Positions 635-4,004 of a stretch of DNA of 25,898 nt are shown here, one piece after another; within the stretch, counting starts at the first letter, position 1; every line of letters begins with the position of its first letter. This DNA is from a virus. Where the stretch lies: positions 1 through 25,898 of IMG/VR virus record IMGVR_UViG_3300047667_000345. The stretch is one strand, 5' to 3'. Under the pieces are notes generated by a model that ran no database searches, was not told where the DNA came from, and was given only the letters and a program-made list of their open reading frames with translations. The position numbers were made by a program, and so were the translations under genes.

Positions 635-1668
635 TAGAATATAATCCAGAAATATCAGCAGAGCAAACGGAAGTATTGCCAGATAATATACTAAGCTTAA
701 AAGAAGATGAGAAATCATGGCTAGATTTAGTCTTTGCAAATAAAGTACCTCAAGGGTATGGCATGGGTTCAGATACATTTGATGAGCATTTTAGATTAAA
801 GCGTAAAACTTTAGTCGGTGTCTTTGGAATGGATAACGTAGGAAAGACAACCTTCTATTTATTTATGATAATGTGCTACGCTAAAAAGCATGGTTTAAAA
901 TTCTTAATACTTGCTAGGGAAAATGAAAGCGCAAGTGTTAGACAGTCTTTGATTGAGTTATTTCTTGGTAAGTACGCTTATCAATGTACACAAGAAGAAC
1001 AACAAGAAGCGGTTAAATTTTGCTATAAGTTCTTTGACATAATTAAACTAGATGTAAACGTAAACAAAGAAAACATCTTTGATATACTAGATAAAGCCTA
1101 TGCTAAGAATGATTACTTTGCGTGCTTTATAGATCCATACAACGCAGTTCAACACGAGCAAAGTCCAAATAGCAACTACGAGTTTTTAGATAGCCTTAGA
1201 CGTTATCAAAACAAGATTGACACAAGCTTTCATATATCTATGCACATTAGTACTGAGAAGGCAAGGAACTATGTTTATACTGCTAATGAAAAATTGACTA
1301 ACTTTGAAGGATTTGAAATTGATGTAACAGGACAAAACAAAGTGCCAAGGAAAAACCACGTGGAAGGCGGGCAACCAATAGCGAATAAGCTTGATGATAT
1401 TATAGTAGTTAACAGAATTTACAAGGTAGACGAACTTAAAAACTACACACTAATATCTATCGAGAAGGTAAAAGAAACTAGAACAGGCGGAACAACAACT
1501 TATGAGAAGCCGATAATGTTTAAGAAGGAACTAGGTTATATTACTTTTATAGATGACAAGTTAAAAAACCCTCTTAAATATAGTGAAGTAGTAAAAGCAA
1601 AGGAAGTAATAAAGCCGGCTAATGCAGAACAAGCATTTGGTATTTATGATGATGGACTTGCATTTTAA
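631..1668 (+). CDS. RecA/DnaB-type replicative helicase ATPase
   Basis: This is a RecA-fold ATPase of the DnaB/Twinkle helicase superfamily, probably the phage replicative helicase. A Walker A loop (GMDNVGKT) lies about 70 residues in, and a Walker B strand ending in FIDP about 100 residues later. A HISMHISTEKAR motif follows, where DnaB proteins carry their nucleotide-sensing segment, and a C-terminal ISIEKVKETRTGG segment matches the end of the helicase core. At about 345 residues it lacks the DnaB N-terminal domain and a primase domain, which fits a short phage form loaded by the initiator upstream. The frame could also start at ATG 607; 631 is preferred because it forms an ATGA overlap with the upstream stop. 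A non-helicase DNA-repair ATPase is the main alternative. Confidence 0.75.
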   Translation: MIEYNPEISAEQTEVLPDNILSLKEDEKSWLDLVFANKVPQGYGMGSDTFDEHFRLKRKTLVGVFGMDNVGKTTFYLFMIMCYAKKHGLKFLILARENESASVRQSLIELFLGKYAYQCTQEEQQEAVKFCYKFFDIIKLDVNVNKENIFDILDKAYAKNDYFACFIDPYNAVQHEQSPNSNYEFLDSLRRYQNKIDTSFHISMHISTEKARNYVYTANEKLTNFEGFEIDVTGQNKVPRKNHVEGGQPIANKLDDIIVVNRIYKVDELKNYTLISIEKVKETRTGGTTTYEKPIMFKKELGYITFIDDKLKNPLKYSEVVKAKEVIKPANAEQAFGIYDDGLAF

Positions 1669-1678
1669 TAAAACAAAT

Positions 1679-2179
1679 ATGAAAACAGACAAAGCGATAC
1701 ACAGACTTATTACTAGGTTCTCAGGTGGTAACTCCATAACTCCTAACGATTCAGACAGAGATGCTTTAAAATCTATTGTAGCATATTACAACGATAAGGA
1801 AAGCAATATAAACTACTCACAAGAACCTTTTGCAAAGTTGTATTTGTTCTTATACTGCGAACTTCTAGCAATGCGTGAGCATCAAGATAAGAATATCAAG
1901 CCAGCAAACTTACTGTCAAAAATATTAAACAGTCCGTTTAGCTTTCAGATACAAGACATTCAGGCAAGGCTTAACGGTTACAAGCAAAATGAGTTCATAG
2001 CATCAACGCTAAAGGCTAATAAGATCACTAGCGATATGACAGAAGAACAATACAACAAAGCTAAGGAAGAACTTAATAAGGTTGATCTAGGGAAGATAAC
2101 AGATAACCAACTCAGCTATGATGAAGTAAAGAATGCTTTATTTAATGAGGTCAATAAACACTTAGAAAACTATAATTAA
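1679..2179 (+). CDS. Hypothetical protein of the replication module
   Basis: A 166-residue protein without a recognised domain. The frame is open from 1622, but the ATG at 1679 is a better start: it lies 10 bases past the stop of the ATPase gene and gives a clean amphipathic N-terminus (MKTDKAIHRLITRF). The protein is soluble, helical and charged, with a hydrophobic central helix near FAKLYLFLYCELLAMRE. Its position directly after the helicase gene makes a helper role in replication plausible, but nothing in the sequence shows it. Confidence 0.6.
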   Translation: MKTDKAIHRLITRFSGGNSITPNDSDRDALKSIVAYYNDKESNINYSQEPFAKLYLFLYCELLAMREHQDKNIKPANLLSKILNSPFSFQIQDIQARLNGYKQNEFIASTLKANKITSDMTEEQYNKAKEELNKVDLGKITDNQLSYDEVKNALFNEVNKHLENYN

Positions 2180-2447: not shown

Positions 2448-2630
2448 ATGGAAATTAACGAAGCACTAAGCAAATGTTTTAAAAAGAAAATCAAAGTATA
2501 TCCTGAGATAAAAGGCTCAGAGTATAGAGTAGTGATAAACATAACAGGTAATGAAACAATAGGCAAGAAGACATTTAGTCAGAAAACTATTGTGAAAGCG
2601 ATAGAAAATACTTATCTTTATTTGGCTTAA
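2448..2630 (+). CDS. Small hypothetical protein
   Basis: A 60-residue basic protein with no recognised family. It shows a short helix (MEINEALSKCFKKK), two predicted strands around an EYRVVINITGN segment, and a C-terminal helix, so a small alpha-beta fold is likely. It starts 20 bases after the zinc-ribbon gene. Its TAA stop is the first part of the repeated motif TAACGyATTGTGTATG that also follows the next gene, which suggests that gene and repeat travel as one unit. Confidence 0.5.
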   Translation: MEINEALSKCFKKKIKVYPEIKGSEYRVVINITGNETIGKKTFSQKTIVKAIENTYLYLA

Positions 2631-2653
2631 CGCATTGTGTATGCCACGTTGCG
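2628..2653 (+). repeat. Cassette-boundary-like repeat, copy A (compact hairpin)
   Basis: The stop codon of the upstream gene runs into TAACGCATTGTGTATG (2628-2643), followed directly by CCACGTTGCG. Bases 2631-2639 (CGCATTGTG) pair with 2645-2653 (CACGTTGCG): seven Watson-Crick pairs, one T-G pair and one T-T mismatch, around a 5-base loop. The 16-base left part recurs at 2910-2925 with one change. Integron attC sites are also imperfect hairpins that begin at or near a stop codon, so a recombination-site role is conceivable but unproven. Confidence 0.55.
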
Positions 2654-2678
2654 AATTAATAACTTAAAAATATAAATT

Positions 2679-2912
2679 ATGAATGATTTTCAAATGTACG
2701 AAGAAGGCAGAAAAGAAGCAGAAGCCAAGCAATGTGATATACACGTTGTTAGCGTTTCGTTTATTGAGCAAATAAAAAAGCAAATAGAATACCACAAAGA
2801 ACAAGAAGCCACAAGGGCAAGCGTAAAAGATTACGGACAAGCAATATACCACAATAACAGACGAGGTGCTTTAGAAGACTTGTTAGTATGGATAAAACTA
2901 AATGAACGCTAA
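2679..2912 (+). CDS. Small hypothetical helical protein
   Basis: A 77-residue charged protein, probably all helical (IEQIKKQIEYHKEQEATRAS, then GALEDLLVWIKLNE). No family is recognised. It is bounded on both sides by copies of the TAACGyATTGTGTATG repeat: copy A ends 25 bases before its start, and its own TAA stop begins copy B. This makes it the clearest gene-plus-repeat unit in the cluster. The start follows an AACTTAAAA-type leader that is also seen before the next gene. Confidence 0.55.
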   Translation: MNDFQMYEEGRKEAEAKQCDIHVVSVSFIEQIKKQIEYHKEQEATRASVKDYGQAIYHNNRRGALEDLLVWIKLNER

Positions 2913-2925
2913 CGTATTGTGTATG
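2910..2925 (+). repeat. Cassette-boundary-like repeat, copy B (left arm)
   Basis: TAACGTATTGTGTATG matches copy A at 15 of 16 bases and likewise starts with the stop codon of the gene before it. The bases after it (AATAGTAAAGCGTG) differ from copy A and form no compact hairpin. A possible partner arm, ATACACGTTGTTG, lies at 3214-3226 beyond the DUF551 gene; it can pair with GTGTAT and the outer AAC bases. Confidence 0.5.
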
Positions 2926-2962
2926 AATAGTAAAGCGTGTTAAAAAACAAAAACTTAAAATT

Positions 2963-3202
2963 ATGGAATGGATTAACGTAAATAAGCAGTTGCCAATTGT
3001 AGATATAGAAGATGGTGATTTTAAAACGAGCAAAAAAGTAATAGCATTTTTTAGAAATGGAAATGAATATTGGTGTGAATCAGTGACTTTGAAATTGTGG
3101 TATGAAGATGATAAACCTGAATGGTATTACGACTATGATAGCGAAAGAGTTGAAGGTAATAAAATAACCCATTGGCAACCTTTAATTGAAGCACGTTTAT
3201 AG
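2963..3202 (+). CDS. DUF551-type small protein
   Basis: A 79-residue protein with the pattern of DUF551 proteins: MEWINVNKQLP at the start, a valine-rich strand (KKVIAFFRNGNEYW) in the middle, and ITHWQPLIEARL at the end. DUF551 proteins are common in phages and mobile elements and have no known function. The acidic Tyr/Asp-rich centre (DKPEWYYDYDSE) is not unusual for the family. It lies between repeat copy B and the complementary arm at 3214-3226, so it may be cassette cargo. Confidence 0.7.
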   Translation: MEWINVNKQLPIVDIEDGDFKTSKKVIAFFRNGNEYWCESVTLKLWYEDDKPEWYYDYDSERVEGNKITHWQPLIEARL

Positions 3203-3213
3203 CTTTATTATTT

Positions 3214-3286
3214 ATACACGTTGTTGTAGCATCGTTTTAATGTGCTACAACATAGGTATATTAAAACGTTTCAATGTTTAATATAC
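3214..3286 (+). promoter_or_regulatory. Leader with three overlapping inverted repeats upstream of the Mom-like gene
   Basis: Three perfect inverted repeats lie in 73 bases. IR1 pairs 3222-3231 (TGTTGTAGCA) with 3243-3252. IR2 pairs 3233-3241 (CGTTTTAAT) with 3260-3268. IR3 pairs 3256-3265 (GTATATTAAA) with 3277-3286. The left arm of IR2 lies in the loop of IR1, and its right arm overlaps the left arm of IR3. IR1 plus IR3, and IR2, are therefore alternative folds. No T-run follows IR3, so it is not an intrinsic terminator. The element ends 34 bases before the ATG at 3321. A switch controlling the modification gene, a protein-binding site or a recombination site are all possible. Confidence 0.5.
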
Positions 3287-3320
3287 AAAGTTAAGATTTA
3301 AAATTATAAAAACTAAACAA

Positions 3321-4004
3321 ATGGAAGTAAAAAAAATAACATATAAACAAGCAATGAAATGGTGTTTAGAAAAGCACTACGCAAAACGAAAGCCTATGTT
3401 TCAATTTGCCTTTGGCTTGATAGTAAATAAAAAAATAGAGGGTATTGTGGTTTATGGAAGACCGCCAGTACAAATAGAAAAGAATGTTTTTTTAGAACCT
3501 ATAAGAAGTAATTTTAAAGTTTATGAACTAACTAGATTAGTAATACAAACAGAACAAAAAAACGCTGCTTCTTTTTTAGTTGGAAACAGTTTAAAAATGC
3601 TACCTAAAAATAATATTGTGGTTAGTTATGCTGATAGTGGGATGGGTCATTGTGGGATAGTTTACCAAAGTACAAACTGGATTTATACAGGAGGGAACAA
3701 AGCACACGACTGTGAGTATATTGTAGATGGCAAGAAAATGCACCCTAAATCTATAACTGAAAGATTAGGAATAACATCAATAGCAAAGTGGGCAAAAGAA
3801 AATAATATAGAAAGGATAAAACCAAAAATAAAATATAGGTATTTTTTTATAAATGCAGATAAAAACACTAAAAAGGATATGATTAAAAAACTTAGATACC
3901 CTATAATAAAAGACTATCCTAAATGTGATAAAAAAATGTATAATGATGGTGATAATATATTAATGAATTACCAATTAGATAATATTCAGCAATTAATATT
4001 TTAG
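3321..4004 (+). CDS. Mom-like DNA adenine modification protein
   Basis: A 227-residue protein resembling phage Mu Mom, a GNAT-related enzyme that converts adenines in phage DNA to a carbamoylmethyl-type modified base and so blocks host restriction enzymes. The key match is the block VSYADSGMGHCGIVYQSTNW at about 101-120, followed by IYTG, which is the diagnostic core of Mom proteins; FQFAFGLIVNKKIEGIVVYG (28-46) and YELTRLVI (68-75) also fit the fold. Length is close to that of Mu Mom. It is preceded by a structured 118-base leader. In Mu, expression of mom is tightly controlled because it is toxic, so regulation here would be expected. A different GNAT acyltransferase is the main alternative. 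The donor substrate cannot be read from sequence. Confidence 0.75.
   Translation: MEVKKITYKQAMKWCLEKHYAKRKPMFQFAFGLIVNKKIEGIVVYGRPPVQIEKNVFLEPIRSNFKVYELTRLVIQTEQKNAASFLVGNSLKMLPKNNIVVSYADSGMGHCGIVYQSTNWIYTGGNKAHDCEYIVDGKKMHPKSITERLGITSIAKWAKENNIERIKPKIKYRYFFINADKNTKKDMIKKLRYPIIKDYPKCDKKMYNDGDNILMNYQLDNIQQLIF

Follow-up and report, generated by a model that had tools for sequence, protein, structure and literature searches.

The 25,898-base virus sequence IMGVR_UViG_3300047667_000345, analysed here over its whole length and called the window, probably derives from a Bacteroidota phage and carries a short array of two or three gene cassettes with hairpin sites. We consider it similarly probable that this array belongs to an integron-like system of Flavobacteriaceae and their phages, in which a XerA/IntI-like recombinase acts on folded sites. 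The system is widespread, common to Flavobacteria and their viruses, and apparently undescribed; our literature search, which left subscription papers mostly outside its reach, gave a weak negative, finding no description of it in Flavobacteria. The contig encodes helicase, Mom, NinG, terminase, portal and capsid genes and most closely resembles phages of marine Flavobacteriaceae, its terminase being 52% identical to that of Olleya phage Harreka_1 across part of the length. It may be a fragment. NinG as a query returned one distant relative and nothing else, and two composite DNA patterns scanned against viral contigs gave no match.

Sites and cassettes in the window

The preliminary description of this DNA reported two copies of TAACGyATTGTGTATG, each beginning at the TAA of a small gene. 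Both observations held: TAACGCATTGTGTATG is exact at 2628-2643 and TAACGTATTGTGTATG at 2910-2925, and they start at the stop codons of the ORFs at 2448-2630 and 2679-2912. The two copies are the left halves of complete hairpin sites, A and B. We scanned for the pattern AAC-5 nt-arm ... arm-3 nt-GTT, naming the orientation found in the window P and its reverse H; the window contained no (5,3)-spaced sites other than A and B, and five shuffled windows contained none at all. A chance likeness of two short AT-rich repeats could be argued from there being two exact copies only, with one further match within the window at up to three mismatches, and from at least three such matches arising in 3 of 100 shuffles. 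We give this explanation practically no weight and count it as already refuted, since both copies form part of paired sites that show the G/A pattern of a wider family, no such sites arise in shuffles, and the same structure occurs at over a hundred places.

Site A (2629-2750, plus strand), delimited by the pattern scan and by motif-chosen arms, consists of AAC at 2629-2631, the spacer GCATT, a left arm at 2637-2652, a right arm at 2729-2744, the spacer GTT and the GTT core at 2748-2750. Its left core, (T)AAC, is provided by the stop TAA of an upstream 60-aa ORF (2448-2630, plus strand); a complementary cassette start sought upstream of this ORF was not found, and the ORF is not counted as a cassette. 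Fusion of this leader ORF to a foreign cassette was considered and dropped on breakpoint evidence at the left core. The stem has G/A non-pairs at positions 7 and 12, the same as in the rest of the site family. The closing arm, GCAATGTGATATACAC at 2729-2744, lies within the next ORF and had been overlooked at first, when copy A was proposed to close into a local hairpin with CCACGTTGCG. That hairpin is present in the predicted fold, but we rejected it as the conserved structure because it is built on variable spacer bases. CCACGTTGC is the continuation of the left arm of copy A. For site A alone, fold energy did not predict the long hairpin (z -0.84 for the top and -0.35 for the bottom strand).

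Cassette unit 1 carries a 77-aa ORF (2679-2912, plus strand) with a weak match to phrog_25863 (E 0.004). Because there is no Met codon after the right core, the ORF starts in the loop of site A, reads through the right arm and core, and stops at the TAA of the site B core. The two ends of the cassette between A and B are perfectly complementary over 9 nt, GTTAGCGTT at the start of the body (R box; 2748-2756, plus strand) and AACGCTAAC at its end (2905-2913, plus strand).

In site B (2911-3225, plus strand), GTGTATGAATAGTAAAGC at 2919-2936 pairs with GCTTTATTATTTATACAC at 3202-3219, followed by the GTT core at 3223-3225. A matching arm, ATACACGTTGTTG, had been assigned to copy A at 3214-3226; the sequence is there, but it is part of the closing arm of copy B. 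The bottom-strand DNA fold of 2900-3260 recovers the site B arms, with positions 7 and 12 unpaired. The hairpin encloses the whole 79-aa DUF551-family gene of cassette unit 2 (2963-3202, plus strand; PF04448 at 25.8 bits, cut-off 22; phrog_924). Site B is much longer than known attC sites, which counts against reading it as an attC-type recombination site.

Two more hairpins lie at 3223-3251 and 3256-3286; folded together, they give z = -3.9 / -4.3. The first is the ORF-less mini body of unit 2 (3223-3251, plus strand), a GTTGTAGCA-TCGTTTTAATG-TGCTACAAC hairpin. The second probably belongs to a short site C (3249-3292, plus strand) at the start of unit 3, composed of AAC, a 4-nt spacer, the hairpin 3256-3286 with loop CGTTTCAATG, a 3-nt spacer and GTT; the assignment is tentative, as the left spacer of 4 nt and the missing G/A at position 7 depart from the pattern. 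The Mom-like DNA modification gene that follows (3321-4004, plus strand; PF25680 at 124.9 bits, phrog_1384 at 166 bits) is the probable cargo of unit 3, and Polaribacter phage P12002L also has a site directly upstream of Mom. A similar layout of gene-in-hairpin, mini body and second hairpin was read by eye in the isolated Cellulophaga phage phi39:1, where the scan had missed it. The loop CGTTTYAATG is found repeatedly, on hairpins whose stems are unrelated, in the window (3233-3242 and 3267-3276) and at many viral loci; the left side of the stem is often longer by one base.

The close phage relatives of the window differ mostly by ordinary gene insertions without sites, so that no clean pair of occupied and empty loci is available for this array. 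The region appears to be variable, as the comparison of two relatives supports: L272 carries a 47-nt short site (2082-2128) at the stop of a gene conserved with window 1622-2179, then an MT-A70-like methyltransferase gene, whereas L273 has neither the site nor a methyltransferase-like gene after the same conserved gene. Insertions at window 628/629 and about 1675 in L270-L273 were considered as G^TT insertions and discarded; they have no sites and represent ordinary phage mosaicism. In these relatives, methyltransferase-like and other genes are inserted between core genes, at gene borders and without a hairpin site.

The site family and its cassette units

Motif scans of viral and genome contigs yielded at least 230 loci, many from Flavobacteriaceae; as the loci were fetched by motif, site frequencies are not population estimates. 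Among the loci listed, we found 133 sites, compared with 1 in the reversed control sequence. Stem positions 7 and 12 are G/A in 93% and 92% of the 133 sites, and the remaining positions except 8 are 86-100% Watson-Crick. The G/A corresponds to a G-T wobble on the P strand and to a C-A mispair on the other strand. Because the site scan demands pairing, we repeated the analysis with arms picked by sequence motif only, and 472 of 612 untested positions paired; 200 shuffles of the partners averaged 253 and did not exceed 281. The arms of the family covary. In this selection, positions 7 and 12 were never Watson-Crick, the non-pair at position 7 being fixed by the motif itself, and position 12 was G/A in 81%.

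The motif recurs beyond this contig, in phages and in Flavobacteriaceae, with small, unrelated and varying genes, one per site, and the same architecture at related phage and host loci, in agreement with the preliminary description. The isolated phage P12002L has about ten such sites, whose arm sequences differ and whose non-pairs are identical. The exact motif is present in 25 of 80 Flavobacteriaceae genomes; two host genomes hold 47 and 40 copies (G001 and G002) as against 0 of the reversed motif, and host arrays reach 40 or more sites.

We compared the nucleotides after the GTT of each site with the complement of those before the AAC of the next site, requiring at least 4 nt. The ends matched in 22 of 30 host and 9 of 19 viral neighbour pairs, while random pairs matched in 3.7% and the two flanks of one and the same site in 5/66 and 3/69 (8/135 together). 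In hosts the matches often reach 6-7 nt and are followed by a G/A difference. Since the complementarity joins a start to the next site and not the flanks within one site, it is the signature of a cassette unit and not of a simple hairpin repeat. The hairpin anatomy, the position at stop codons and the recurring terminal CGTTTTAATG loops would also suit a non-autonomous repeat (MITE- or REP-like) or a regulatory RNA at gene ends. We regard such an origin as very improbable, given how the cassette ends pair, the order of recombinase, attI and array in hosts, and an Rfam search of the array that gave no match in either gathering or E-value mode.

The orientation of the genes differs between hosts and phages. 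Among cassettes with matching ends, all 22 from hosts have their longest ORF on the H strand, and 11 of the 12 from phages have it on the P strand, one being ambiguous; phage cassettes therefore have the site 5' of the gene. This opposite polarity relative to the site looks new. The core TAA terminates an upstream open frame that is 50 codons or longer at 23 of 77 phage sites and 5 of 81 host sites.

Where near-identical DNA occurs in different surroundings, the shared stretch begins or ends at the left (AAC) core. Two loci (L022 and L038) are 99% identical to L050 for 354 bp beginning with the T of TAAC, and further left-core breakpoints were found between L044 and L084/L051, L272 and L270, and L284 and L116; in four loci compared with L270, the shared DNA starts 8 nt inside the left core. 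Contrary to this pattern, L051 and L084 break from L009 at the right core. The left-core breakpoints indicate that a site and the following gene form one unit, and from them we infer a crossover at AA^C, which equals G^TT in the H orientation, as in integrons.

Some phage units carry their gene inside the hairpin loop of the site, an arrangement that looks new. In sites of 100-130 nt, an ORF starts within the loop and continues across the right core in 14/25 phage and 4/50 host cases, the window ORF 2679-2912 among them. A whole gene lies between the arms in site B of the window and at L003, L047, L078, L092, L278 and L117, each encoding a different small protein. A body of 28-29 nt with a TTTTAA loop follows directly at 4 of 7 scored long-loop sites as against 1 of 83 other phage sites, which are small counts; L117, missed by the scan, has one as well. 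On these small counts, our reading is that the unit is a dumbbell with the gene in either loop.

Linked recombinases and attI regions

A linked tyrosine recombinase, which the preliminary description had proposed to look for, was found in hosts and in some phage contigs; none was recognised among the examined ORFs of the window. A long TIGR02249 relative is present in 12 of 13 host genomes, 374-402 aa where complete, with one cut at a contig end, and 61 of 80 Flavobacteriaceae genomes encode a protein that matches at E 1e-60 or better. Sites follow the host recombinase on the same strand in eight loci (L256, L257/258, L259, L261-L264 and L267). Six loci contain the expected first cassette start (9-10 nt) at 42-178 bp downstream of the recombinase stop codon, in many cases preceded by a palindrome such as GTATATAGAACATATGTTCTATATAC; in L257 the best first-cassette match is 681 bp away, and in L264 only 6 nt matched. 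An attI adjoining the recombinase gene is thus found in hosts and is not present in this window. In phages, a related recombinase of 267 aa directly follows a P-oriented array in three contigs (L013, L054 and L072); L277 has a weaker match.

Several further features were observed around these genes. Nearly all host loci have, upstream of the recombinase and divergent from it, a small gene with a CLxCEKELxGRxDKKFC-like motif (L262:16817-17224, with equivalents at L256, L257, L259, L261, L263, L264, L267 and L268); neither of the two examples scanned matched Pfam or NCBIfam. Upstream of the first cassette in L262 and L267, the attI regions appear to hold two tandem palindromes, possibly accessory binding sites. 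The array beside the phage recombinase of L054 includes a variant site with the 6-nt left spacer GGACGA (AACGGACGAGTRTA), which the site scan misses.

The best profile matches of the recombinases are XerA-type models. The host proteins score 192-206 bits against TIGR02249, for which the cut-off is 265, leaving about positions 180-240 unmatched, and 2a3v aligned to the recombinase in two pieces. From the KGxKxR box to HxLRH there are 59-65 residues in the host and phage recombinases and 107 in Vibrio IntIA. All compared host and phage recombinases lack the IntI-specific insertion. In a small and thinly sampled tree, the phage recombinases stand beside one host clade (89/96), IntI falls in the same broad group as these recombinases, and two host Xer proteins lie far off.

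Alternatively, the phage might have picked up ordinary integron cassettes (CALIN) from a canonical integron, to be used by a classical IntI. Phage CALINs are known, including those of P12002L, one site of which is used by IntI1 in E. coli (PMC9892861), and the GTT core and complementary cassette ends are shared with integrons. We nevertheless consider this origin unlikely, because no IntI scoring above the TIGR02249 cut-off was found in the 13 host genomes, though two hold at least 40 sites, because GTTRRRY occurs in about 8% of cores, and because the linked recombinases lack the IntI insertion.

A possible mechanism and comparison with known systems

The integron-like reading would make the mobile unit one site plus one gene, starting and ending at the AAC core. 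A tyrosine recombinase resembling XerA and IntI, which either the host or a part of the phage outside this contig would supply, would bind the folded single (bottom) strand, in which the outer R stem (GTT-N7) and the inner L stem (GTGTAT-type) may form a pseudo-symmetric, dif-like core whose 5/3-nt centre stays unpaired. Strand exchange would occur at AA^C, or G^TT on the other strand. A cassette inserted at the stop codon of an upstream phage gene would let operon reading continue, and the excised circle would be a dumbbell with the gene in the R loop, as usual and in unit 1, or in the L loop, as in unit 2 with DUF551. The catalysis, the strand used and the continued mobility of this phage's cassettes are inferred. 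We see an even chance that Flavobacteria and their phages have a system separate from IntI integrons, with an I2-less recombinase, folded sites marked by the two mispairs, reversed polarity in phages by which cassettes drop in at stop codons, and a dumbbell cassette with the gene in either loop.

According to PMC7790495, it was probably the acquisition of the I2 helix that gave integrons single-strand recombination. If our reading is correct, an I2-less recombinase tied to foldable cassette sites would represent an intermediate or an independent route, and the origin of single-strand recombination would become directly testable. Gene-cassette exchange would be routine in Bacteroidota and their phages, which would help to explain the variable small-gene content of these phages; the phage cargo includes anti-restriction genes (Mom, DNA methyltransferases).

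Qi et al. (2023; PMC9892861) described attC sites and CALINs in phages, including P12002L, and assayed two attC sites of that phage, one of which recombined with IntI1 in E. coli. P12002L and the present contig are alike in being Bacteroidota phages with the same site architecture and DNA-modification genes as cargo. Beyond that study, we describe about ten P12002L sites, the opposite polarity of phages and hosts, sites with a gene in the loop, a host platform with attI, and phage-encoded recombinases in other contigs.

Xer-dif is a single double-stranded dif site for dimer resolution. The present system resembles XerA and XerCD-dif in its XerA-type best matches and in two arms around a short centre, but its site is a foldable imperfect palindrome in many copies with gene cargo, tens per genome, and its recombinases branch far from the two host Xer proteins in the small tree.

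With chromosomal integrons it shares a recombinase with an adjoining attI, tandem arrays of mostly one-ORF cassettes, GTT-core hairpin sites and complementary ends. It differs in that the R box is about 10 nt and cassette-specific, the G/A non-pairs are conserved, and the host array lies downstream of the recombinase and co-directional with it. The defining feature of IntI is an additional domain (patch III / I2 helix), which an integron-like recombinase subgroup is said not to conserve fully; here the recombinase lacks it, and the host proteins are extended at the N-terminus. Integrons from Bacteroidetes are very scarce in the results of IntegronFinder 2.0. By our own site definition, and not the standard attC or IntegronFinder models, paired R and L arms with conserved asymmetry are observed, and the 25.9-kb contig, with two sites and no recognised recombinase, may be a CALIN, a term for at least two attC sites with no integrase nearby. 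The likeness to the R and L boxes of attC noted earlier thus extends to paired arms, GTT core and complementary ends and stops at GTTRRRY, found in only 26/322 cores; GTT itself belongs to the site definition used, and breakpoints fall at GTT cores. Likewise, the suggested gene-capture system of phages and hosts is borne out by cassette ends, arrays and the linkage of host recombinase and attI, short of strict integron membership. Because the additional domain and the GTTRRRY core both failed, we call the system integron-like rather than canonical: it functions in the manner of an integron, and its cassettes are present in the window.
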